Shown here: positions 3,956-29,289 of the stretch, piece by piece | Layout: each line of letters begins with the position of its first letter | How positions within the stretch are numbered: position 1 is the first letter of the stretch | Source: Candidatus Phyllobacterium onerii | Lineage (GTDB): Bacteria > Pseudomonadota > Alphaproteobacteria > Rhizobiales > Rhizobiaceae | Assembly: GCF_028331445.1 (NCBI RefSeq) | Contig: NZ_JAQMHX010000006.1 | Location: 186,001-250,000, forward strand | Direction: 5' to 3' | Length of the DNA stretch: 64,000 bases | Program-made: the position numbers and the translations under genes | Notes under the pieces: generated by a model | Databases searched by the model: none | Told to the model about the DNA's origin: nothing | What the model saw: only the letters and a program-made list of their open reading frames with translations

Positions 3956-4144
3956 TTGTTGCGTAAGAAACGGCTTATGTAGTTTGTATAACGATCACAC
4001 AAACTTGATTGCATTGCGCTCCGGCTTAATTGACCCAAGTTGTTGATATATCTAACATTGGATTCGTTCTAAGTTCTCGCCAACTTTTGCACGCGCCAAG
4101 TATGCCGGCCCCGATGGTTGGACGTTTGATTCCAAGGATTGCCT

Positions 4145-5521
4145 GTGAAATTCGGACGTTTTCTTACCGGTCTTGGAGCCCTGATCGTTGTCGGTGTAGC
4201 GGGCGCTTTTGTTTACGCGTGGAAGCCGGAAATTGCTCCAATCAAACCACCAGAACGTGCATCCTTCGATCAGACCTTGATTGAGCATGGGGCGAAACTG
4301 GCCGCCGTCGGCAATTGCACGGCTTGCCATACCAATCCCGGCGGAAAATCCTTTGCCGGCGGGCTGACCATTCCAACACCGTTTGGGACGATCTATTCCA
4401 GCAACATCACGCCCGACGCTGAGACGGGTATAGGAACATGGTCGGAAGCGGCTTTTCAGCGGGCCATGCGCGACGGCGTCGGACGCAAGGGCGTGCATCT
4501 CTACCCTGCGTTTCCCTATGACCATTTCACCAATGTCTCGGATGACGACAACCGTGCCTTGTATGCCTTCCTGATGACACGTCAGCCGGTGACAGCCACG
4601 CCACCGCCGAACGAGCTGCCTTTCCCCTTGAACGTGCGTCTGGTTCTGGCTGGCTGGAAGATGCTGTTCTTCAGGGATGGCGCCTATCAGGCCGATGCAG
4701 GCCAAAACGAGGAATGGAACCGTGGTGCCTATCTCGTCAATGGCCTGGGCCATTGTGGTGCGTGCCACACACCGCGCAACTCACTCGGTGCCGAAAAAGC
4801 TTCACTGCACCTTGCCGGCGGCGAAGCCGAGGGTTGGAGTGCTTTCGCGCTCGATGGCTCGTCATCCGCACCCGTTGTTTGGGACAAGGATAGCCTCTAC
4901 ACCTATCTACGGCAGGGCTGGCATCCGGATCACGGCGTCGCTAACGGCCCTATGGGTGAAGTTACCGGAAATCTCGGACTGCTGCCGGACAGCGATATTC
5001 GTGCGATGGCGACTTACATCGCATCGATCATGGGCGAACCTTCGGCGGAACGTCGCGCTAACTCAGACAAACTCCTAGAAGAGATAAAATCGGGCCCGAT
5101 CACATCTGCGATAAGCAACGATCAATCGGCATCAGGCGGAAAAGGGGCTGCGATCTATCAAGCTGCTTGCGCAGTTTGCCATGAAAACGGTCGGCCGCAA
5201 CCGTTTGGCGGGCTTGATCTGCGGCTCAGCTCGACGGTGAATGCACCAGACGCGCAGAACGCCATCAACATGGTGCTCTATGGCCTTCCGGCTGCAAGTG
5301 GCCGGACGAGCGCTATCATGCCGGGTTTCGCCGATGTGCTGACCAATAATCAACTGAACGATCTGCTTGGCTATCTGCGCCAGCATTTTACTGACCAGGC
5401 CGCGTGGACCGATGTAGTCCAGCGTGCGGCCGATACCAGAACCGGTAAATACCATGTCAGCGTCCGGCCCTCCGACGGGATCGAGCGCGGCCCCAGCAAT
5501 ATAGGAGCGGAGGATCAGTGA
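4145..5521 (+). CDS. Membrane-anchored triheme cytochrome c, Mo hydroxylase electron acceptor
   Basis: A 458-residue periplasmic cytochrome c held by an N-terminal hydrophobic segment (about residues 5-26). Three CXXCH haem sites are visible: CTACH at 58-62, CGACH near 204 and CAVCH near 342. This three-haem layout is that of alcohol/aldehyde dehydrogenase cytochrome subunits. The GTG at 4145 is chosen because AAGGA lies 6 bases upstream; the TTG two codons earlier would have no spacing. The stop overlaps the next ATG (TGATG), so it is translationally coupled to the 2Fe-2S and Mo subunits. It probably passes electrons from the hydroxylase to a terminal oxidase, as in nicotinate and aldehyde dehydrogenase complexes. 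Confidence 0.88.
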   Translation: MKFGRFLTGLGALIVVGVAGAFVYAWKPEIAPIKPPERASFDQTLIEHGAKLAAVGNCTACHTNPGGKSFAGGLTIPTPFGTIYSSNITPDAETGIGTWSEAAFQRAMRDGVGRKGVHLYPAFPYDHFTNVSDDDNRALYAFLMTRQPVTATPPPNELPFPLNVRLVLAGWKMLFFRDGAYQADAGQNEEWNRGAYLVNGLGHCGACHTPRNSLGAEKASLHLAGGEAEGWSAFALDGSSSAPVVWDKDSLYTYLRQGWHPDHGVANGPMGEVTGNLGLLPDSDIRAMATYIASIMGEPSAERRANSDKLLEEIKSGPITSAISNDQSASGGKGAAIYQAACAVCHENGRPQPFGGLDLRLSSTVNAPDAQNAINMVLYGLPAASGRTSAIMPGFADVLTNNQLNDLLGYLRQHFTDQAAWTDVVQRAADTRTGKYHVSVRPSDGIERGPSNIGAEDQ

Positions 5522-6015
5522 TGAAACTCAACGTCAATGGCAGCACGCACGAAGTGGATGCCGATCCCGCGACGCCGCTGCTCTATGTCTTGCGCAACGA
5601 CCTCGAACTCAACGCTGCCAAGTTCGGTTGTGGACTGGGGCAGTGCGGCGCCTGCACGGTGATGGTGGACGGGAAGGCAATTTTTTCCTGCCTGACACCG
5701 ATCCTCTTGCTTGAGGGGCGCGAGATCAAGACTGTGGAGGGTCTTGGAACCATCGATAGTCCTGGCCCGATGCAACAGGCATTCATCGAAGAGCAGGCTG
5801 CGCAATGCGGCTATTGCATTCCCGGGATGATGATGCGGGCCCAGGCATTGTTGCAATCCAAGCCGGACGCGAGCGATGCGGAAATCCAAGTGACGCTTGA
5901 ACCCAATCTGTGCCGTTGCGGAACGCATATGCGTATTCTCAAAGCCGTGAAACGCGCTCGCGAGCTGATGAAAACAGCGGCCATGGCACCTGCAAGCGGC
6001 GAAAGGAAAGTCTGA
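5521..6015 (+). CDS. 2Fe-2S subunit of a molybdenum hydroxylase (IorA/CoxS type)
   Basis: A 164-residue xanthine-oxidase-family iron-sulfur subunit. The plant-type ferredoxin cluster site is GCGLGQCGACTVMVDGKAIF followed by Cys; the second, helical cluster uses CGYC and CRCGT. It relays electrons from the molybdenum centre to the cytochrome encoded upstream. The ATG at 5521 is used; it shares one base with the upstream stop and has a GGAGGA-like ribosome site. It overlaps the Mo subunit start by three bases (ATGA). It has no signal peptide, so it is probably carried to the periplasm with its Tat-exported partner, as known for related enzymes. Confidence 0.92.
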   Translation: MKLNVNGSTHEVDADPATPLLYVLRNDLELNAAKFGCGLGQCGACTVMVDGKAIFSCLTPILLLEGREIKTVEGLGTIDSPGPMQQAFIEEQAAQCGYCIPGMMMRAQALLQSKPDASDAEIQVTLEPNLCRCGTHMRILKAVKRARELMKTAAMAPASGERKV

Positions 6016-8276
6016 TGACCGCTCCTCGCTTCCCGAATGTTACGCGCCGCAATCTGTTGCTGGGTACCGGGGCGCTGGTCGTCAGTTTTTCGCTGAAAGA
6101 CCATGCCTTCGCCCAGGAGGGCGAACTCAATGTACCGGCGAAACCACCAGAACCGGTAGCGGCCGGTCCCAAACTGCCCGGTAGTCTGGCCGATACGCCT
6201 TCACTGGACGCATGGATCCGGATCGATGCGGATAGCTCGGTCACGGTCTACACCGGCAAGGCAGAACTCGGGCAGGGAACCAAGACGTCGCTGCGTCAGA
6301 TCGCGGCGGAAGAACTCGAAGTTCCCCCTGCGTCGATCAATCTGATTACTGCTGATACGGCAATTACCCCGGACGAGGGTTTTACTGCGGGGAGCCAGAC
6401 AGTCCAGAACAGTGGCACGGCAATCCGCAATGCCGCGGCGCAGGTACGCGAGATTCTGATCCAGCAGGCGAGCGGCAAGCTGCAAGTTCCTGCCGATCGG
6501 CTCAAAGCGCAAAATGGTCGCATTGTCGGACCTGACGGCAATTCGATCGGATATGGCGAAGTGGTCATGACCGATATGCTGCATGTGGACGCGCAGCCGA
6601 AGTCGAAGCTCAAGTCCCCGGACGCCTATGAATATATTGGCAAGCCTTTCGCGCGTGTGGATATCCCGGCTAAGGTTACCGGCGGTGCCGCATATGTACA
6701 GGATATGCGGCTGCCGGGGATGTTGCATGCTCGCGTTGTCCGCCCGCCAAGTTGGTTCGCGACGCTGAAGGATATCGATACAGCCACCATCAAGGCGATG
6801 CCGGGTGTGGTTGCTGTTATTCGTGATGGCAACTTTCTCGCAGTGGCTGCGGAGAAGGAGTTTCAGGCCGTACAGGCCATGCGGGCTCTGACGGGCCTTG
6901 CCGAGTGGGAGGAAAAACCCCGCCTGCCGAACGAGCAGGATCTTCCCGCCGTTCTGCAAAAGAGTGAAAGCGAGCAGGGCGTCGTCGCTGAGGCCGGCGG
7001 CGATTTTACTGGTGGCGTAAAGACATTCAGTGCTCAATTCATGCGACCATACCAGATGCACGCATCGATCGGACCCTCGTGCTCCGTGGCTCATCTCGAC
7101 AACGGCACGATGACGGTGTGGACCCATACCCAGGGTGTTTATCCGGACCGCAAGGCTATCGCGCAAATGCTCGGCATGCCGCTGGACAAGGTACGCTGCA
7201 TCCATACGGAGGGATCAGGCTGCTATGGACACAATGGCGCCGACGATGCAGCCGGCGACGCGGCATTGATTGCGCGAGCGCTTCCAGGCCGTCCTATCAA
7301 AGTACAGTGGATGCGCGACCAGGAGCATCTATGGGAGCCCTATGGTCCGGCAATGCTGACCAAGGTCAGCGCATCGCTGGATGCATCAGGCAAGGTCGTC
7401 AATTGGAAATATGACCTTTGGAGCAACACCCACTCGGCAAGGCCGGGCAGTGCGGGCGCACTGTTACCCGGGCAACTGATGGCATCGGGGTATCCACCAG
7501 ACAAACCCGTCATGAGCATCACGCCGCTTGGCAATGGCGATCGCAACGCCATACCGCTTTATTCCATCCCCAATATGCGGGTGCTTTGGCACTTCGTTGC
7601 CGATATGCCAGTGCGGGTTTCTTCGCTACGCGGGCTGGGCGCCTATGCAAACGTCTTTTCGATTGAAAGTTTCATGGATCAACTGGCGAAGGAAGCAGGA
7701 GCCGATCCGGTTGAGTTCCGCCTCAGGCACATGGAGGATCCAAGGGCACGCAAGGTGATCACGACGGCGGCCGAGGCTTCTAACTGGTCGAACGAGCCCA
7801 TGCCGGAGGGACGTGGCCGGGGATTTGCTTTTGCCAAATACAAGAACCATGCAGCCTATCTGGCACTGGCGATGGAGATCGATGTCGACAAGGAAACGGG
7901 CAAGATTCGCATACCGCGCATTGTTTCTGCTGTCGATTGCGGCGAGGCCGTGGCCCCCGACAGCATCCGCAACCAGACGGAGGGCGGCATCATCCAGTCC
8001 TTGAGCTGGACAATGTACGAAGAGGTCAACTTCGACAATACCCGGATCACGAGTTCGGATTGGTCAACCTATCCGATCCTGCGTTTTAGTGCGGTACCGG
8101 GTAGTCTCGACGTTCACATCGTTGACAATCCCGGTTCGCCCTATCTCGGCGTCGCCGAAGCTGCGCAGGGACCAACCTCCGCTGCACTTGCCAATGCGAT
8201 CGCCAATGCGACAGGCAAGCGTCTCTACAATCTGCCTTTTTCGCCGGCGCGGGTGAAAGCAACGCTCGGAGTTTGA
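6015..8276 (+). CDS. Molybdopterin-binding large subunit of xanthine dehydrogenase-family hydroxylase
   Basis: A 753-residue catalytic subunit of the IorB/aldehyde dehydrogenase type, hydroxylating an aldehyde or N-heterocycle in the periplasm. A twin-arginine signal (VTRRNLLLGTGALVVSFSL, ending near AFA-QEG) supports Tat export. Two homologous halves follow: GKAELGQGTKTSLRQIAAEE, GSQTVQNSGTAIRNAA, the hammerhead GKPFARVDIPAKVTGGAAYV, and RGLGAYANVFSIESFMDQLA. GVAEAAQGPTSAALANAIAN near the C terminus keeps the glutamate equivalent to the catalytic base of xanthine oxidase. No FAD subunit or XdhC-like maturation gene is adjacent. The triheme cytochrome upstream is the likely acceptor. The substrate is unknown. 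Confidence 0.9.
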   Translation: MTAPRFPNVTRRNLLLGTGALVVSFSLKDHAFAQEGELNVPAKPPEPVAAGPKLPGSLADTPSLDAWIRIDADSSVTVYTGKAELGQGTKTSLRQIAAEELEVPPASINLITADTAITPDEGFTAGSQTVQNSGTAIRNAAAQVREILIQQASGKLQVPADRLKAQNGRIVGPDGNSIGYGEVVMTDMLHVDAQPKSKLKSPDAYEYIGKPFARVDIPAKVTGGAAYVQDMRLPGMLHARVVRPPSWFATLKDIDTATIKAMPGVVAVIRDGNFLAVAAEKEFQAVQAMRALTGLAEWEEKPRLPNEQDLPAVLQKSESEQGVVAEAGGDFTGGVKTFSAQFMRPYQMHASIGPSCSVAHLDNGTMTVWTHTQGVYPDRKAIAQMLGMPLDKVRCIHTEGSGCYGHNGADDAAGDAALIARALPGRPIKVQWMRDQEHLWEPYGPAMLTKVSASLDASGKVVNWKYDLWSNTHSARPGSAGALLPGQLMASGYPPDKPVMSITPLGNGDRNAIPLYSIPNMRVLWHFVADMPVRVSSLRGLGAYANVFSIESFMDQLAKEAGADPVEFRLRHMEDPRARKVITTAAEASNWSNEPMPEGRGRGFAFAKYKNHAAYLALAMEIDVDKETGKIRIPRIVSAVDCGEAVAPDSIRNQTEGGIIQSLSWTMYEEVNFDNTRITSSDWSTYPILRFSAVPGSLDVHIVDNPGSPYLGVAEAAQGPTSAALANAIANATGKRLYNLPFSPARVKATLGV

Positions 8277-19855: not shown

Positions 19856-20173
19856 ACTCTCTTCCTCCTTCGATGCGGTGGCGTCCGCACAGAGTGTATC
19901 CCTTCGCCCGGGAGAGGGAACTCAACACATATTGATATGCACCCAGATGGCGACGATTGGCCGGTAAATGGCATTGCGACGCCGTAAAAATTGCAAGCCT
20001 CGCTCCAAAGTATTTCCGGAGATCAACTTCACGCGACAAGCACATGTTCGTGATCGTGCATCTATACGAGCGTATCACACAGTTTCCACAAGCATTCAAC
20101 CTTGCCCGGTCTGCCTGTCCTGCCTATCGTAAAGAATAGGGCAATGATGTTTACCGATTCACGGGAGGAAGAT

Positions 20174-20641
20174 GTGGCTACAAAAGAAATCCAGCTTAAT
20201 GTTGATGGTAACAATCATGTAATTACAGCGGATCCAGAGATGCCGCTGCTCTACGCTCTGCGTGACGATCTCGGCCTGCGGAACCCTCGTTTTGGTTGTG
20301 GCTTGGCACAATGCGGTGCATGCACGGTGCAAATTGACGGACAAGCCGTCCGTTCATGCGTGACTCCGGTCGACTCAGTCGGCGTCGGTAAGGTTGTTAC
20401 TTTGGCCAATCTCGGCGGGGGAAATGGCAAGGCTCACAAGATCCAGACGGCATTTATCGAAGAGCAGGTTCCGCAGTGCGGCTATTGCCTCAACGGTTGG
20501 CTGATGACGGCGGCCGCATTCCTTGAGACAAATCCCAATCCCAGCGATGGTGAAATTCGTGATGCGTTGAGCGGACTGAAATGCCGCTGCGGCACACATT
20601 ACAGTATCATGCGTGCCGTCAAGCGCGCTGCACAGGCGTGA
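20174..20641 (+). CDS. 2Fe-2S subunit of a second molybdenum hydroxylase
   Basis: A 155-residue IorA-type iron-sulfur subunit and paralogue of the protein at 5521-6015. Cluster sites are CGLAQCGACTVQIDG with a following Cys, then CGYC and CRCGT. The GTG at 20174 is preferred because GGGAGGA lies five bases upstream and the length then fits the family; ATG starts at 20144 and 20147 would add extra residues. It ends 10 bases before the Mo subunit start, with AGGAGG between them. Unlike the first operon, no cytochrome c gene is adjacent. Confidence 0.9.
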   Translation: MATKEIQLNVDGNNHVITADPEMPLLYALRDDLGLRNPRFGCGLAQCGACTVQIDGQAVRSCVTPVDSVGVGKVVTLANLGGGNGKAHKIQTAFIEEQVPQCGYCLNGWLMTAAAFLETNPNPSDGEIRDALSGLKCRCGTHYSIMRAVKRAAQA

Positions 20642-20651
20642 GGAGGCAATC

Positions 20652-22916
20652 ATGACGACCAATGTCAACCGGCGCACGGTTCTCGGGGCCTTCGGCGCAC
20701 TCACCATTTCCGTCGTGCTGCCTGGCCACAAGGCGCGCGCGGACGTCTTCGGCGCTACGACACAGCCTCCGCTGAAACCCGAAAATCTGTCCTCCTATAT
20801 CCAGGTTAATGCAGACGGTACCGTTGTCGCCTTCTGGGGCAAGATGGACATGGGCCAGGGCACTGATCTTGGTGTTGCCCAGATGGTGGCTGAGGAGCTC
20901 GACCTCCCAATATCCAAAGTCTTCGTTCAGCAAGGCGATACGGCGACCAGCATCAACCAGGGCGGAGCTTCGGGCTCCACGGGCATTCAGCAGGGCGGCA
21001 CAGCGCTGCAGAGCGCCGCTGCGGAAGCGCGCTATCAGCTTGTCGACATGGCATCGAAACAACTCGGTGTACCCGTCTCGGGCTTAAAAGTGGACGATGG
21101 TGTCATCAGCTCCCTTGCTGATCCGGCTAAGACAGTGACCTATGCCGAACTGATTGGCGGCCGCTTCTTCGATACGCAGCTTGAGTGGAATCAAAAAATT
21201 GGCAACAGCCTTTTCGTCAAAGGCAAAGGCACGATAAAGCCTGTTGCCGACCACAAGGTTATCGGCAGTTCGCCGATGCGCCGTGACGTGCCATGGAAGG
21301 TCATGGGAACCGGCGACTATGTCGTGGACATCAAGGTGCCGGGCATGTTGCACGCACGAGTGATCCGGCCCGAAGTGGCAGGTGCCGTGCCTGTCGAGGT
21401 CGATGCAAATTCGGTCAAGGACATACCGGATGTGCAGATTATACGCGATAAAGGCTTCCTGGCTATCGTGGCGCCGCGGGAGTGGGATGCGATCAGGGCT
21501 GCCGATCAGCTCAAGGTGACATGGTCAGATTCGACACCCAATTTCCCGACACAGACCGGCATTTTCGATCACCTTCGGAATGCAAAATCGGTTCATCGTG
21601 AACCGGGCGAAGATGTCGGCGATGTTGATGCTGCTTTCGCAGGCGCCGCCAAAGTTATCGAGGCGGCCTATGAGTGGCCGTTCCAGAGCCATGCGAGCAT
21701 GGGCCCGGCCTGCGCCGTGGTCGAGATCAAAGGTGACAGCGCAACGTTGTGGACTGGGTCGCAGAAGCCGCATTTTGCCGCCGCGGGCGTTGCGGATATT
21801 CTGGGTATGCCATCGGAGAAAGTGCACGGCATCTGGGTTCCCGGCCCCGGCAGCTACGGCCGCAACGATGCCGGCGATGCTGCTGCCGATGCAGCGCTGA
21901 TCGCCAAGCTGACTGGCAAACCGATCAGGGTTCAGGGTATGCGGAAGGACGGCACAGGGTGGGACCCCAAGGGCCCAGCCTCTATCCACACGGCACGAGC
22001 CGCGCTCGACAAGGATAACAATATCCTTGCCTGGCACTTCGAGTCCAAGGGCTTCTCCCGGGTTGACGTCAACTCCAATGAGAGCGCGACGCGCGATACA
22101 CTGGCTGGTCAGCTTATCGATACACCGTTAAAGCCCGGCGTCGGCTTTGGCGTGCCGGAGGAGTCTTACGGTTTTCCGGCGAAGCGAAAGGCATGGGAAA
22201 CAGTCGCCCCGCTGCTGGACCGGGCATCGCCGCTTCGGACGACGCATCTGCGCGATCCCGTCGGGCCGCAAATCCACTTCGCCTCTGAATCATTCATGGA
22301 TGAGGTGGCCTATGCCATCCTCGTGGACCCGTTAGAATTCCGCCTCAAATACATTACCGACCCTCGTGACATCGCCGTCGTCAAGGCCGCAACGGAAAAG
22401 GCCGGCTGGCAAGCCCGCACTGCCGCGCGCCGGCAAAGCGCAGGTGACGGCAAGTTCAAGGGGCAGGGGATGTCCTATGCGCAGCGCAGTGGCACAAGGG
22501 TCGCGGTGGTCTGCGAGGTCGAAATCGAGAGCAAGACAGGCCGTATATGGGCGCGGAAATTCACTGTGGCCCACGACTGTGGCATGATCGTCAATCCACG
22601 GCAGCTGACGCATACAATCGAAGGCAATATCGTCCAGGCAATCAGCCGTTCAGTGCATGAGGAAGTGCAGTTCGACGACAAGAACGTCACCAGTATCGAT
22701 TGGGAGACCTATCCGATCCTCGACATTACGGAGACGCCGGAAACAATCGACGTGGTTCTGATCGATCACAAGGAACTACCGCCGAGCGGTGCTGGCGAAC
22801 CTTCTATGCGACCGGTTGCGGCGGCTATTGCCAATGCGATCTTCGATGCGACCGGCGTACGCATCCGCCAGGCACCATTCACGCCGGATAAGCTCAAAGC
22901 CGCCGGCCTGGCCTGA
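20652..22916 (+). CDS. Molybdopterin-binding large subunit, IorB/xanthine dehydrogenase family
   Basis: A 754-residue Mo subunit, paralogous to the one at 6015-8276. A Tat signal, NRRTVLGAFGALTISVVLPG, ends near ARA-DVF. Motifs are GKMDMGQGTDLGVAQMVAEE, GASGSTGIQQGGTALQSAAA, GPGSYGRNDAGDAAADAALI and SGAGEPSMRPVAAAIANAI, which keeps the catalytic glutamate. It hydroxylates an aldehyde or aromatic heterocycle in the periplasm. Only the 2Fe-2S partner is encoded with it, so its electron acceptor must be encoded elsewhere or shared with the first system. A strong hairpin follows the stop. Confidence 0.9.
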   Translation: MTTNVNRRTVLGAFGALTISVVLPGHKARADVFGATTQPPLKPENLSSYIQVNADGTVVAFWGKMDMGQGTDLGVAQMVAEELDLPISKVFVQQGDTATSINQGGASGSTGIQQGGTALQSAAAEARYQLVDMASKQLGVPVSGLKVDDGVISSLADPAKTVTYAELIGGRFFDTQLEWNQKIGNSLFVKGKGTIKPVADHKVIGSSPMRRDVPWKVMGTGDYVVDIKVPGMLHARVIRPEVAGAVPVEVDANSVKDIPDVQIIRDKGFLAIVAPREWDAIRAADQLKVTWSDSTPNFPTQTGIFDHLRNAKSVHREPGEDVGDVDAAFAGAAKVIEAAYEWPFQSHASMGPACAVVEIKGDSATLWTGSQKPHFAAAGVADILGMPSEKVHGIWVPGPGSYGRNDAGDAAADAALIAKLTGKPIRVQGMRKDGTGWDPKGPASIHTARAALDKDNNILAWHFESKGFSRVDVNSNESATRDTLAGQLIDTPLKPGVGFGVPEESYGFPAKRKAWETVAPLLDRASPLRTTHLRDPVGPQIHFASESFMDEVAYAILVDPLEFRLKYITDPRDIAVVKAATEKAGWQARTAARRQSAGDGKFKGQGMSYAQRSGTRVAVVCEVEIESKTGRIWARKFTVAHDCGMIVNPRQLTHTIEGNIVQAISRSVHEEVQFDDKNVTSIDWETYPILDITETPETIDVVLIDHKELPPSGAGEPSMRPVAAAIANAIFDATGVRIRQAPFTPDKLKAAGLA

Positions 22917-23520: not shown

Positions 23521-24531
23521 TCATTCTATTGCCTGTTCGAGGAGCCTCATCAGCCCTGTTTCGGGGCCGGTTAGACCTTTCCGATGGGGTGCACGCAGAA
23601 GCGAACTATTGAGTTGGCCAGCATTGAAACATTCGGTCACAAGGGGATGAACATAACTCGATCGTGTAACCGCGGGTGTGTTCCGCAGGAACTCGCTAAC
23701 ATTGCGCATGGCCGCAGCAAGAGCCCGCTTCCGGGCGGAATCGGTGTTGGCATCGTTCTGCGCCAGGAATTCGAGTGCGCGGGCAGATCCATGAAAAGTC
23801 CTGAAATCCTTGGCGCTGACTTTTGAGCCAGAGATTTCTTGCAGATATTGGTTCAGTTCTCCCGCGTGCAGGCTGCGCCAGCGCTGCTTGTCTTTGTATT
23901 GGAATAGCCTTCCCCGCCGTTTCAGGGCCTTTAAGCGCCGGACGGCGGCGCGATCGCTGATCGCTATTTCGTTCTTCTTTTTCGATTTGCCGGCAAAGAC
24001 GAAGTTCGCGATATTGCCGTTGATCTTGAGATCGCTGTTTTTGAGTGAGGCGATGCCTCGACCACCATCCTTGGCATATTTTTCATGCCCGGCCCGGAAA
24101 GCCTTCTGATCGATCAGTTTCACTGCGAGCGCGACAAGCGGGCGACTTGACGTCGGGGGGCGCTTCATATCACGCAGAATGCGCTTGCGGATATGTGGAA
24201 GCGCCTTGCCAAAGGCAAGCAGCCTGTGCGTTTTGATACTGTTGCGCACGTCCTCCCATTTCGAGTGGTAGATATATTGTCGCCGTCCAAGCGTGTCCAA
24301 GCCTACGGCCTGAATATGGCCGTCGCATTCATCGCAGCAACAAACCTCGGTCCACGCAGGAGGAATTACCAGAGCAGTGATGCGCTCGATGTGCTTTTTT
24401 GAGACTGGACGTCCATTGGTGCGGACGTAATGGAATGTGTCTCCAAGTGGTTCACGCTTTAAAGTGAATGTTTCCGGATCGACCAGCTTAAGCCCAAGTA
24501 TCCCAGCATAATACGCATGGTCCGGTTGCAT
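23521..24531 (-). CDS. DNA topoisomerase IB (eukaryotic/poxvirus type)
   Basis: A 336-residue type IB topoisomerase that nicks one strand through a 3'-phosphotyrosine link and relaxes supercoils without ATP. Visible parts are the N-terminal beta-domain (VIPPAWTEVCCCDECDGHIQ, QYIYHSKWEDVRN), KDFRTFHGSARALEFLAQND with the catalytic arginine, and the active-site tyrosine in RSSYVHP. The open frame extends another 115 codons upstream, but the ATG at 24531 (ribosome site GGTGAAG) fits the family start YYAGILGLKLVDPE. The longer version would cross an EcfG-like promoter. Bacterial IB enzymes are accessory; grouping with Ku and LigD suggests a stress or repair role. Confidence 0.9.
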   Translation of the reverse strand: MQPDHAYYAGILGLKLVDPETFTLKREPLGDTFHYVRTNGRPVSKKHIERITALVIPPAWTEVCCCDECDGHIQAVGLDTLGRRQYIYHSKWEDVRNSIKTHRLLAFGKALPHIRKRILRDMKRPPTSSRPLVALAVKLIDQKAFRAGHEKYAKDGGRGIASLKNSDLKINGNIANFVFAGKSKKKNEIAISDRAAVRRLKALKRRGRLFQYKDKQRWRSLHAGELNQYLQEISGSKVSAKDFRTFHGSARALEFLAQNDANTDSARKRALAAAMRNVSEFLRNTPAVTRSSYVHPLVTECFNAGQLNSSLLRAPHRKGLTGPETGLMRLLEQAIE

Positions 24532-24558: not shown

Positions 24559-24584
24559 AACGTTTGTTGCGACGGGACAGTTCC
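24559..24584 (-). promoter_or_regulatory. EcfG-type general stress promoter for topoisomerase IB
   Basis: On the minus strand, GGAAC (24584-24580), 17 bases, then CGTT (24562-24559). This matches the alphaproteobacterial EcfG consensus GGAAC-N16/17-CGTT and ends 27 bases before the topoisomerase start codon. Assignment rests on sequence match and position. Confidence 0.6.
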
Positions 24585-24647
24585 CTGAGACGCAAAAAAG
24601 GTGCAAGCTCGTGAAGCAATCCTGTTCCAGTTCGATAAGGAACCACC

Positions 24648-24947
24648 ATGACCAAATTTGCTCTTTACGTGCCCCTCGAAGCAAAAGCCGGAAAAGAGGA
24701 AGACGTCGCGGCGTTTCTCCAGTCGGCTTTACCGCTGGTAAATGAGGAATCCGGAACCGTCGCATGGTTCGCGATACGTCTCGGCAAAAGTTCCTTTGCA
24801 ATCTTTGACGCATTTGCTGACGAGGGTGGTCGCAACGCGCATCTTTCGGGGAAAGTTGCCGCCGCTCTGATGGCACGAGCAGATGAGCTTTTCGCCAGCC
24901 CGCCGCAGATCAACAAGGCCGATGTCCTTGCCTCCAAACTACCGTGA
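24648..24947 (+). CDS. Antibiotic biosynthesis monooxygenase (ABM) domain protein
   Basis: A 99-residue single-domain ABM ferredoxin-like protein (MTKFALYVPLEAKAGKEEDV, GTVAWFAIRLGKSSFAIFDA, FADEGGRNAHLSGKVAAALM). Relatives are cofactor-free quinol monooxygenases or small-molecule binders. AAGGA lies eight bases before the ATG. It is divergent from topoisomerase IB and about 75 bases upstream of the first ku gene, which has its own stress promoter. Oxidative-stress protection is possible but unproven. Confidence 0.82.
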   Translation: MTKFALYVPLEAKAGKEEDVAAFLQSALPLVNEESGTVAWFAIRLGKSSFAIFDAFADEGGRNAHLSGKVAAALMARADELFASPPQINKADVLASKLP

Positions 24948-24967
24948 CGCTACATGATTGATTCTAT

Positions 24968-24992
24968 GGAACGAATTCTCTATCGGACCGTT
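24968..24992 (+). promoter_or_regulatory. EcfG-type general stress promoter for the first ku gene
   Basis: GGAAC (24968-24972), 16 bases, CGTT (24989-24992), 30 bases before the ku start codon. An exact match to the GGAAC-N16/17-CGTT consensus in non-coding DNA. Confidence 0.65.
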
Positions 24993-25022: not shown

Positions 25023-25829
25023 ATGGCGCCGCGTTCATTCTGGAAAGGCTATTTGAAGCTCTCGCTCGTTACCTGCCCGGTGGCGATGGTCCCTGCAACG
25101 ACTGACAACGAGAAAGTCAAGTTCCATACGCTTAACCGGAAAACCGGAAATCGCGTCGTCAGCCAGTATGTCGATTCCGTAAGCGGCAAGGCGGTGGACG
25201 AAGACGACGAGGTCAAAGGCTATCAGCGTAGCGAAGACGAATATGTCATGCTCGAGGATGACGAGATTGAGGCGGTCGGGCTTGAAAGCACGCGAACGAT
25301 CGATATTTCGATGTTTGTGCCCCGCGATAGTATTGATTGGGTCTGGTACGACAAGCCACACTATCTGACGCCGGACGATCCGGTCGGTGAGGAAGCTTTT
25401 TCGGTCATCCGCGATGCGATGGAGGCAACCGGGCAGGTCGGGATTTCGCGGCTGGTTATGTACAGGCGGGAGCGCGCGGTGATGCTGGAGCCGCGAGGTC
25501 GTGGCATTGTCTTGTGGACATTGCGCTATGGCGATGAGGTGCGTGATCGCGATGCGTACTTCGGGGATATCAAAAATGACAAGGTTGACAGCAACCTCAT
25601 GCCGTTAGTGAAGACGCTGATCGATGAGCGGATGAAGCCGTGGGATCCCAAAATGGTCGATGATCCGGTTCAAGATCGCCTGCTGGAGATTATCGCGGCG
25701 AAGAAGAAGGGCAAGAAGCGTCCGGCAAAGGCAAAGGAAAGCACCTCGGAGCCTCCGAGCAATGTCGTCAATATCATGGACGCTTTGAAGAAGAGTATCG
25801 CCAGCGAAAGCAAATCGAAAAAACGCTAA
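25023..25829 (+). CDS. ku: Ku protein, non-homologous end joining (first copy)
   Basis: A 268-residue bacterial Ku homologue that forms a ring on DNA ends and recruits LigD. Family signatures are FWKGYLKLSLVTCPVAMVPA, VKFHTLNRKTGNRVVSQYVD, KGYQRSEDEYVMLEDDEIEA and FGDIKNDKVDSNLMPLVKTL. The lysine-rich tail ends NVVNIMDALKKSI, like the end of the second Ku. It is convergent with ligD; their stops overlap by three bases. Carrying two Ku genes is common in rhizobia, where the copies can respond to different stresses. An EcfG-like promoter lies directly upstream. Confidence 0.95.
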   Translation: MAPRSFWKGYLKLSLVTCPVAMVPATTDNEKVKFHTLNRKTGNRVVSQYVDSVSGKAVDEDDEVKGYQRSEDEYVMLEDDEIEAVGLESTRTIDISMFVPRDSIDWVWYDKPHYLTPDDPVGEEAFSVIRDAMEATGQVGISRLVMYRRERAVMLEPRGRGIVLWTLRYGDEVRDRDAYFGDIKNDKVDSNLMPLVKTLIDERMKPWDPKMVDDPVQDRLLEIIAAKKKGKKRPAKAKESTSEPPSNVVNIMDALKKSIASESKSKKR

Positions 25830-28384
25830 CTGCTCCTTTTTGTCTTGGGCTTTTCAATGGGAGCGGCTGCTGCGCGAAAATCGGTCCAGGGATCGCGTTT
25901 TATAGCGGCAAGACGCGTCGCCGTGTTCAAAACCGTGAAATAGGCCGGACCGATACCGGGAGTAAGTTCATCCCATTCGAGAGGCATCGAGACGGCGGCG
26001 CCTGGACGCGCCCGGGTAGAGTAGGGCGCCACTGCTGTCATACCGCGCTGGTTGCGCAGATAGTCGATGAGAATCTTGCCCGTGCGTTTCGACTTGGTGA
26101 TGGTCGAGACATAGGAGTCAGGACTGTCGGACGCCATGGAATCAGCAAGGGCTTTGGTGAAAGCCTTGACTTCCGGCCAGGTAGCTTTGGGTTTGACCGG
26201 GGCCACCACGTGGAGACCCTTGCCCCCGGACGTCTTGACGAAGGCGGCTAGACCCGCCTGTTCAAGTCGGTCCCGGGTTTCAAATGCGCCTGTTATGACC
26301 TGTTCCCAAGGAACATTCTCACCCGGATCGAGATCCATGATGATGATGTCCGGGCGCTCCCAATCTGCAATTGTCGAGCCCCAAGGATGAATTTCCAGCA
26401 CCGCCGACTGCACCAGACCAATCAGCCCATCCAAATCGTTGATACTGATCAACGGTTCGTCGTCTTTGTCTTTTGGATCGGTGACCAAGGCGATATTGGA
26501 ATTGAGGCCCTTCCAAGCATGTTTCTGAAAGAAAGTTTGGCCGGTAATGCCTTCCGGACCCCGCAGCAAGGCCAAGGGTCGCGCAACGACGAAGGGAGCA
26601 ATATACTTCCAGACCTCGGTATAGTAGTCCGCCAGACCTTGCTTGGTGACGCCTTCTTCGGGCCAATAGATGCGGTCAGGATGGGTAAGTTTCACTGTGG
26701 GCCTCTCCTGTTGTGGCGATGCCTTTGCCTTTGGCGTCTCGCGCACGACTTCGCTTGGATGTTTGTCCTCGCGTAGGCCGCGGAACGCTGCATGACGCAG
26801 ATTGTTATCTGCCGTCCAGGCGCGGAATTCCACCTCAGCGACAAGTTGTGGTTTCACATAGCGCACCTGCCGTGCTGCATCGGCGCTCAGCTTTTCGGCA
26901 AAGGGACTTTCCGGCGAGCGAATGCGTTCGAGCCTGCGAAACAAATCTTCCGCCACCGACGCGCTGTATCCTGTTCCGACGCGGCCAACGTGTTCAAGTT
27001 TCTTGCCGTTGTAAACGCCCATGACCAGCGAGCCGATCGCCCTGCGCGATGTGGTGGATGGTACGTAGCCTCCTATGACGAATTCCTGTCGTTGTGAGCA
27101 TTTGGCCTTGATCCAATCCTTGACGCGGCCGGAGCGGTATGGCGCGTCGCGAAGCTTCGACACGATACCTTCGAGGCTGAGCCTGCAGGCGTGATCGAGA
27201 ATAAGCGGCCCGTTTTCTTCGAAATGTCCACTATAGCGGATCAATCCGGGCGCATCGGCGGTCAGTTTTTCAAGCATGGTCTTGCGCTCGACCAAGGGCA
27301 AGTCTTGCAGGTTGAAGCCGTCAAGATAGAGGAGGTCGAAAACGTAGAAGACGAAACGATCCGTGCGGTTGTCGCTGAGATCAGCTTGCAGGGCGGAAAA
27401 GTTGGAGGCGCCTCCAACTGTTTCGACCACCAACTCGCCATCGATCAGAGCGGTGCCGATGGGCAAACTTTGAAATGCACCAACGATTTCTTTGCCGAAC
27501 CTCTTCGTCCAGTCGAGGCCGTTGCGCGTGAAAAGCTTGACCCGGCCCGCCTCGATGCGCACCTGCAGTCGATAGCCGTCAAACTTTATCTCGTGAATCC
27601 AGCGCTCGCCCGAAGGCGGCTTTGGCGCAAGTGTCGCCAGCGTTGGCTCGACAAAAGAGGGAAGGGGTGCCTTCCTGGCTCCGTCCATTTTCGAGGAATC
27701 AGGGACATTCGCCGCTTGGGTGTCAGAAGATCGTGCTTTGACAGCTTTGGCGGCGGCTTTGCCATTGGCTGCCTTCTTTTTATCGATCTTGCCGGTTTTT
27801 GAAGACCAGCCGGGGTCTTCGCCAGCGACATCGGCGATTTCCCGTCCGGTCTTTACGGATTCAGGGCGCTCTTCAAGGATATCAGGATCGCTTTCAGTAC
27901 GTGCGGCGTCATCTTCCGCTTTTATGAGCAACCAGTTCTCACGCTTTTCGCGCGGCTTGCCATGCATGCGAACCAGATGCCAACGCCCTGAAAGCTTTTC
28001 GCCGTGAAGTTCGAACTCCAGATGGCCCTTGGCATAGCCGTACTTCTGGTCAAAGACCGGGGTCCAGGTGCCGCGGTCCCAGACAATGACGGTACCACCA
28101 CCATATTCGCCCTTGGGTATCGTGCCCTCGAAACCGCCATACTCCAAAGGATGGTCTTCCACGTGGACCGCGAGCCGCTTCTCACTCGGTACCAGGCTTG
28201 GGCCGCGCGTAACGGCCCAACTCTTCAAAACGCCATCCATTTCAAGGCGCAGATCGTAATGAAGTCGCGTCGCATCGTGTTTCTGGATGACGAAACTATT
28301 ACCGGCCTTGCGCGACTTGCGTCCCTTTGGCTCTGACGTTGTCTTGAAATCGCGTTTTTTGCGGTATGTTTCAAGCGCAACCAT
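25826..28384 (-). CDS. ligD: Multifunctional DNA ligase D (phosphoesterase-ligase-polymerase)
   Basis: An 852-residue LigD with three domains. Residues about 30-160 form the 3'-phosphoesterase (QKHDATRLHYDLRLEMDGVL, EDHPLEYGGFEGTIPKGEYG). The ATP-dependent ligase spans about 245-555, with the adenylated lysine at 267 in EIKFDGYR. The primase-like polymerase spans about 565-835 (MDLDPGENVPWE with metal-binding aspartates, VKTSGGKGLHVVAPV). A charged linker separates the first two. It processes, fills and seals double-strand breaks held by Ku. It begins four bases after the second ku gene ends, so those two form an operon. Its phosphoesterase-ligase-polymerase order is typical of rhizobia and Pseudomonas. 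Confidence 0.96.
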   Translation of the reverse strand: MVALETYRKKRDFKTTSEPKGRKSRKAGNSFVIQKHDATRLHYDLRLEMDGVLKSWAVTRGPSLVPSEKRLAVHVEDHPLEYGGFEGTIPKGEYGGGTVIVWDRGTWTPVFDQKYGYAKGHLEFELHGEKLSGRWHLVRMHGKPREKRENWLLIKAEDDAARTESDPDILEERPESVKTGREIADVAGEDPGWSSKTGKIDKKKAANGKAAAKAVKARSSDTQAANVPDSSKMDGARKAPLPSFVEPTLATLAPKPPSGERWIHEIKFDGYRLQVRIEAGRVKLFTRNGLDWTKRFGKEIVGAFQSLPIGTALIDGELVVETVGGASNFSALQADLSDNRTDRFVFYVFDLLYLDGFNLQDLPLVERKTMLEKLTADAPGLIRYSGHFEENGPLILDHACRLSLEGIVSKLRDAPYRSGRVKDWIKAKCSQRQEFVIGGYVPSTTSRRAIGSLVMGVYNGKKLEHVGRVGTGYSASVAEDLFRRLERIRSPESPFAEKLSADAARQVRYVKPQLVAEVEFRAWTADNNLRHAAFRGLREDKHPSEVVRETPKAKASPQQERPTVKLTHPDRIYWPEEGVTKQGLADYYTEVWKYIAPFVVARPLALLRGPEGITGQTFFQKHAWKGLNSNIALVTDPKDKDDEPLISINDLDGLIGLVQSAVLEIHPWGSTIADWERPDIIIMDLDPGENVPWEQVITGAFETRDRLEQAGLAAFVKTSGGKGLHVVAPVKPKATWPEVKAFTKALADSMASDSPDSYVSTITKSKRTGKILIDYLRNQRGMTAVAPYSTRARPGAAVSMPLEWDELTPGIGPAYFTVLNTATRLAAIKRDPWTDFRAAAAPIEKPKTKRSS

Positions 28385-28387
28385 AAA

Positions 28388-29236
28388 TCAGCTCGCCTTC
28401 CTCCGTGCGGGTTCCGCCTTGGGTTTGCGGGCTTGCGTCTTTTTGGGTTTCGCTTCTTTCTTGCCCGCACCCGCGCTTTGCCGCAGCGCCTCCATAAGAT
28501 CGACGACCTTCTCGGACTTGGCGGGTTGCTTCTTGGAGATCGGCTTGCCTTCGAGTTTAGCCCGGACCAGTTCGGCAAGAGCGGCCTCGTATCGATCCTT
28601 GTACTCGGAAGGGTCGAAGCTGCCGCGTTTCGTTCCGATAATATGCTTCGCTAGGTCCAGCATCTCGCCCGTGATCTTCACCTCAGGGATGTCGCTGAAT
28701 GCATCCTTGGCTGAGCGTATCTCGTAATCGAAGTGCAACGTGTTGGCGACCAGTCCACCGCCTACGGCACGGATTAGAAGCGTGCGAGCACGGCGGAAAA
28801 GCACCGTTTGGGCAAGCGCCGCCACCTTCTTGTCTTTCATGCCCTCACAGATGAGGGCAAAGGCTTCCTGGCCGTGCTTGTCACTGGGTGCGAGATAATA
28901 TGGTTTGTCGAAATATATATCGTCCACATCGTCCGTCGCGACGAATGCTTCGACTGATAGCGTCTCGTCGCTGTCGGGAACCGCAGCAGCAACCTCTTCG
29001 GGCTCGAGTACGATGTAATCGTTGTCGCCAACCTCGTAGCCCTTGACCTGATCTTCCTTCTCGACTGGCTTGCCGCTGTCGGAATCAATGAACTGCCGCT
29101 GAACCCTATGGCCGGTCGCACGGTTCAACGTGTGAAAGGCGATGCGGTCGGTGGTCGAGGCTGCGGTGTAAAGCGCTACAGGGCACGAAAGCTCTGCAAC
29201 CTTCAGAAAGCCTTTCCAGTTTGCTCTTGGCGCCAA
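28388..29236 (-). CDS. ku: Ku protein, non-homologous end joining (second copy)
   Basis: A 282-residue Ku paralogue beginning MAPRANWKGFLKVAELSCPV, with IAFHTLNRATGHRVQRQFID, KGYEVGDNDYIVLEPEEV and PYYLAPSDKHGQEAFALICE. The tail is long and very basic (KKEAKPKKTQARKPKAEPAR), suited to extra DNA binding, and carries KVVDLMEALRQSA as in the first copy. The start codon is TTG at 29236 with GGGAG seven bases upstream; no ATG fits the frame. It is co-transcribed with ligD. The divergence between the two Ku proteins allows homodimers or heterodimers. Confidence 0.95.
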   Translation of the reverse strand: MAPRANWKGFLKVAELSCPVALYTAASTTDRIAFHTLNRATGHRVQRQFIDSDSGKPVEKEDQVKGYEVGDNDYIVLEPEEVAAAVPDSDETLSVEAFVATDDVDDIYFDKPYYLAPSDKHGQEAFALICEGMKDKKVAALAQTVLFRRARTLLIRAVGGGLVANTLHFDYEIRSAKDAFSDIPEVKITGEMLDLAKHIIGTKRGSFDPSEYKDRYEAALAELVRAKLEGKPISKKQPAKSEKVVDLMEALRQSAGAGKKEAKPKKTQARKPKAEPARRKAS

Positions 29237-29264: not shown

Positions 29265-29289
29265 AATGCACTTGAGGTGGATTAGTTCC
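29265..29289 (-). promoter_or_regulatory. Near-consensus EcfG-like promoter for ku-ligD
   Basis: On the minus strand, GGAAC (29289-29285), 16 bases, CATT (29268-29265), one base off CGTT, 28 bases before the TTG start of the second ku gene. The single mismatch makes this weaker than the other two. Confidence 0.35.

Follow-up and report, generated by a model that had tools for sequence, protein, structure and literature searches.

The window, a stretch of 64,000 nucleotides from Candidatus Phyllobacterium onerii, contains an island in which a type IB DNA topoisomerase gene (topoIB) lies beside a set of ku and ligD genes, the order being topoIB (minus strand), a 99-aa ORF (plus), ku1 (plus), ligD (minus) and ku2 (minus). 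The genes and the promoter-like boxes ahead of them are as follows:

23521..24531, minus strand: topoIB, type IB DNA topoisomerase of 336 aa (Pfam Topoisom_I and Top1B_N_bact over cut-off)
24559..24584, minus strand: EcfG-type box GGAAC-N17-CGTT ahead of topoIB (exact pattern match and family conservation)
24648..24947, plus strand: 99-aa ORF between topoIB and ku1 (82% identical counterpart at the equivalent place in locus L063)
24968..24992, plus strand: EcfG-type box GGAAC-N16-CGTT ahead of ku1 (exact pattern match and the ku1 boxes of relatives)
25023..25829, plus strand: ku1 (NCBIfam TIGR02772 Ku_bact at 300.5 bits, cut-off 150; Pfam Ku)
25826..28384, minus strand: ligD, ligase D, which carries phosphoesterase, ligase and primase-polymerase domains (four Pfam domains, each over cut-off)
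28388..29236, minus strand: ku2, with a TTG start (NCBIfam TIGR02772 at 282.8 bits)
29265..29289, minus strand: third EcfG-like box, GGAAC-N16-CATT, ahead of ku2

Residues R146, K182, R244, N284 and Y293 of TopIB, which we take to be the active-site residues (the Arg-Lys-Arg-Asn-Tyr set) of a type IB topoisomerase, are invariant across 16 aligned sequences and align with like residues of the Deinococcus structure 2f4q. The product of the island's topoIB thus combines both domains and the residue set of bacterial type IB topoisomerases, and shares domains and aligned active-site residues with the Pseudomonas aeruginosa TopIB as well, an enzyme that relaxes DNA without ATP (PMC2666729). The closest named topoIB loci belong to two Rhizobiales isolates (78-79%) and to Phyllobacterium sp. 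628 (67%). Ku-LigD NHEJ is likewise represented in full, by Ku equivalogs and by a LigD with ligase, polymerase and phosphoesterase domains. Because ku2 stops 3 bases short of ligD, the two genes probably form one operon.

The earlier note had placed GGAAC-N17-CGTT before topoIB and GGAAC-N16-CGTT before ku1, each about 30 bases from the start codon. Both were recovered by our pattern scan, the gap from the end of CGTT to the ATG measuring 27 bases at topoIB (ATG at 24531) and 30 bases at ku1 (ATG at 25023). Its further description of the two boxes as framing the island has to be amended, as both lie within the island and point outward. The box ahead of ku2, which the note had overlooked, ends 28 bases before the gene, and a CATT box occupies the equivalent ku2 site in genomes G063 and G149 and in Phyllobacterium sp. 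628. All three boxes therefore face their own gene close to its start codon, and all three combine a GGAAC -35 element with a spacer of 16-17 bases and a CGTT or near-CGTT -10 element (two exact, one CATT).

Bare motif counts were dropped as evidence since exact matches do not exceed chance in either the window or the genome. Each pattern occurs once in the window against 0.68 and 0.47 expected from shuffled windows (about 1.15 summed), and genome-wide the two patterns give 73 + 77 = 150 exact matches against 103 + 87 = 190 for the backwards-read pattern. A further match at 26782-26806 (plus strand), within ligD and on the strand opposite to it, was taken as chance. These numbers are what would be expected if the boxes matched a short consensus by accident and the genes were run from ordinary sigma-70 promoters. 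The case for the boxes accordingly relies on their placement and conservation and not on the number of matches, conservation being the stronger of the two; as to placement, an exact box has a chance of about 5e-4 of falling into the 40-base slot before a given gene at the genome's match density.

To assess conservation, the stretch from -150 to +60 around the estimated topoIB start was scanned for GGAAC-N[GA]TT, spacers of 15-18 being permitted, in a family set of 151 genomes, 85 of which have topoIB. A related box precedes 60 of these 85 genes against 1.60 in shuffles, and the strict CGTT form precedes 32/85 against 0.14. Although spacers of 15-18 were allowed, the 60 boxed genes show only 16 or 17, 30 each; spacer length differs between close relatives while the boxes are kept, and spacer positions carry at most 0.5 bit, except the first spacer base of the N17 set (0.56). 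As a control, neighbouring ORFs of 200 aa or more from these loci were examined, and 10/70 of them have a box (strict 6/70). Matches on the reverse strand of the same topoIB stretches (14/85, strict 10) also lie above shuffles, which divergent ku genes explain only partly. Among 12 named alphaproteobacterial loci, at least two of which apparently overlap the family set, a box precedes topoIB in 11, those of Aurantimonas, Fulvimarina, Aureimonas, Faunimonas, Phenylobacterium and Caulobacter included. This sets them apart from bacterial TopIB genes outside the alphaproteobacteria, where a box was found ahead of topoIB in 0/68 loci, many of them from Pseudomonas.

The ku genes give a similar picture. 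Boxes are present in 21/37 ku1-type and 7/18 ku2-type upstream stretches (strict 18 and 2) against 0.24 and 0.26 in shuffles, the stretches being distinct and representing a subset made up of the best-scoring ku loci and those near topoIB, with the ku2 of the window not among the 18. Conservation so far above shuffles and, at topoIB, above neighbouring ORFs, together with its complete absence from the non-alphaproteobacterial topoIB loci, leaves hardly any room for chance matches as an explanation. The earlier note had made its reading depend on the boxes being conserved in relatives, and conserved they are at topoIB and at ku1-type genes alike, if not universally: no box was seen at 16/37 ku1-type and 11/18 ku2-type loci examined. 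Many rhizobial genomes carry several ku genes, up to seven in one genome among the matches listed (L032-L061, L142-L201).

At topoIB, 25 of the 85 family genes have no box in the stretch from -150 to +60. One of them is the gene of G149, which belongs to the genus of the window; the topoIB of Phyllobacterium sp. 628 is boxless too. The ku genes of both do have boxes. The simple reading that boxless topoIB genes stand outside the regulon was partly rejected, since 5/25 lie directly behind glgX and 4/25 have a box farther upstream, at -152 to -226. We collected seven glgX-topoIB loci, namely those of the five boxless family genomes and of S. meliloti GR4 and R. etli CFN42, and in 7/7 found an exact GGAAC-N16-CGTT ahead of glgX, at a distance of 57-164 bases from its start. 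The same layout is present in S. meliloti 1021, whose topoIB, unlike that of the window, lies behind glgX on pSymB (about 1373656-1374520, by its position SMb21445) and not beside ku1, with an exact box ahead of glgX (the glgX-topoIB loci carry the labels L232, L234, L236-L240 and L253). As the gaps are short, glgX and topoIB would be expected to share a single transcript.

EcfG is the alphaproteobacterial general stress sigma factor, and the PhyR-NepR-EcfG switch that governs it is established. A single nepR was detected in the genome of the window, beside ecfG and facing phyR, with a GGAAC-N16-AATT box on the nepR side and a GGAAC-N16-TGTT box on the phyR side; a DUF1328 gene near this locus has GGAAC-N16-CGTT ahead of it. 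GGAAC-type -35 elements are common to several ECF groups, so that the boxes could be genuine ECF promoters read by another ECF sigma factor or by an EcfG paralogue with the same type of -35 element. We regard this as improbable: a complete nepR-ecfG/phyR locus, itself provided with like boxes, is present in the genome, and the CGTT -10 element is the EcfG form given for Sphingopyxis granuli in PMC7083833.

Class-level distribution bears on the same alternative from both sides. A class set of 290 genomes contains 31 with a match to the topoIB N-terminal family (E <= 0.001), and removal of two under the curated cut-off leaves 29. A NepR match is present in 24 of these 29 against 35/261 of the others (Fisher 1.7e-14, kinship ignored), so topoIB tracks NepR across the class, which argues for EcfG over another factor. 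Beyond the family, a box precedes topoIB in 11/28 genomes (own genome excluded), comprising 9/23 with NepR and 2/5 without. The two boxed genomes without a NepR match would suit a different sigma factor, and at class depth the topoIB box occurs patchily, without regard to whether NepR is detected.

Taken on the DNA sequence, it is highly probable that the boxes are EcfG promoters and that EcfG drives topoIB, ku1 and ku2-ligD. This was the central proposal of the earlier note for the first two boxes, and both the conservation in relatives and the nepR-ecfG/phyR locus of the genome speak well for it. In P. onerii, EcfG would then transcribe the genes of the island in the following manner. Stress would activate PhyR, which would take up NepR and release EcfG, and RNA polymerase carrying EcfG would start topoIB leftward, ku1 rightward and, from the third promoter, ku2-ligD leftward. 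A stressed, non-growing cell would thereby make an ATP-independent topoisomerase together with its end-joining set; TopIB might relieve torsion in energy-poor or drying cells, and Ku and LigD might seal breaks.

Parts of this arrangement are familiar from other alphaproteobacteria. The ku and ligD genes of Sinorhizobium meliloti are under the EcfG-type sigma factor RpoE2, in likeness to the control proposed here, and Dupuy is said to have described stress-inducible NHEJ in this species in 2019. For M. loti, PMC3989490 describes induction by heat of three of the four ku homologues and of one of the three ligD homologues. The ku-ligD genes of Sphingopyxis granuli TFA are directly GSR-regulated from a GGAAC-N16-CGTT promoter, as at ku1 of the window, whereas a topoisomerase does not figure in the main text of that report (PMC7083833). 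The closest precedent is S. melonis Fr1, where Topoisomerase IB (#1831) and Ku (#1102) are among the top EcfG-regulated genes, with log2 values of -3.5 and -3.2 when compared with the ecfG mutant (PMC6599016). Both genes are thus EcfG-dependent there, and their GGAAC motifs lie 24 and 30 bases away from the start, but their gene numbers are distant from each other and the motif of Topoisomerase IB has CATT at its end, whereas topoIB, ku1 and ku2-ligD form one island with three boxes here, two of them exact CGTT. A regulon shared by topoIB and ku is therefore already known from a published precedent (PMC6599016), and the suggestion of the earlier note that topoIB belongs to the same regulon as ku is well borne out by this case and by the conservation described above.

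The present analysis adds the wide occurrence of the topoIB box across the family, the exact EcfG-type box that also stands ahead of topoIB through glgX, and the recurrence of topoIB and ku as neighbours. In main texts we found no account of RpoE2 controlling topoIB in rhizobia; PMC3616915, PMC3188799 and PMC6180224 do not contain the word 'topoisomerase' there. PMC8877191 mentions a topoisomerase solely for a cloning vector, the sole mention in PMC3073932 is the DNA topoisomerase I CC_2451 in a table of CtrA targets, and PMC7719229, on NHEJ gene neighbourhoods, does not contain the word. In the main texts of an open-access library we found no report of the breadth of topoIB-box conservation or of topoIB-ku linkage.

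At the level of gene content, topoIB and ku co-occur strongly. Both genes occur together in 76/151 family genomes, their single totals being 85 and 95 (Fisher 6.6e-15, kinship ignored), and for at least 11 of the 85 topoIB genes one of the ku matches listed is no more than 5 kb away. The arrangements vary: topoIB faces ku1 in some loci and ku2 in others, or lies on the strand of its ku neighbour. On plasmid p_2 of Phyllobacterium sp. 628 (L233), topoIB faces ku2, boxes are present at both ku genes and none at topoIB, and genes for catalase and exodeoxyribonuclease III follow further along.

That TopIB and end joining are functionally tied, as the earlier note suggested in connecting supercoil relaxation with stationary-phase end joining, would go one step beyond a shared promoter type. 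The promoters may well be EcfG promoters while TopIB has no working link to end joining and the neighbourhood merely gathers stress genes, a reading that is compatible with EcfG control of the island and opposed only to the functional tie. We lean moderately towards it. The position of topoIB behind glgX in other genomes points this way, as do the few topoIB genes counted near ku and the catalase and exodeoxyribonuclease III genes in the Phyllobacterium sp. 628 island; against it stand the strong co-occurrence of topoIB and ku and their closeness in several different arrangements. It is correspondingly doubtful, if conceivable, that alphaproteobacterial TopIB is a dedicated member of an end-joining set induced by stress. 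Cells that are energy-poor and not growing would then make it alongside Ku and LigD, and near broken or drying DNA it would relieve torsion without ATP or even join in strand rejoining. Such a dedicated membership, if true, would give bacterial TopIB its in vivo role.

The role of type IB topoisomerases in living bacteria is, to our knowledge, little settled. The conserved boxes of the family, the repeated closeness of topoIB to ku-ligD and the glgX route together place topoIB in the general stress response, and they suggest that it belongs to a stress programme caring for resting DNA. With EcfG control of the island as the preferred reading, this place makes the cellular role of topoIB directly testable.

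Two further elements of the window deserve mention. The 99-aa ORF, also overlooked in the earlier note, matched no Pfam or NCBIfam family, so that a by-eye guess of a monooxygenase-like protein found no support. It has relatives in 19/151 family genomes, in some of them as close pairs (G042, G062, G081). As an EcfG target it was rejected, with a box in 2/13 loci (own copy counted) and none at the window copy or in L063. Finally, two aerobic CO-dehydrogenase/aldehyde-oxidase-like gene sets (2Fe-2S and large subunits) were recognized by eye on the plus strand at 4139-8276 and 20102-22916; the first has a cytochrome c gene and the second adjoins topoIB. Cox-like genes are present in the EcfG table of S. 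melonis (PMC6599016).
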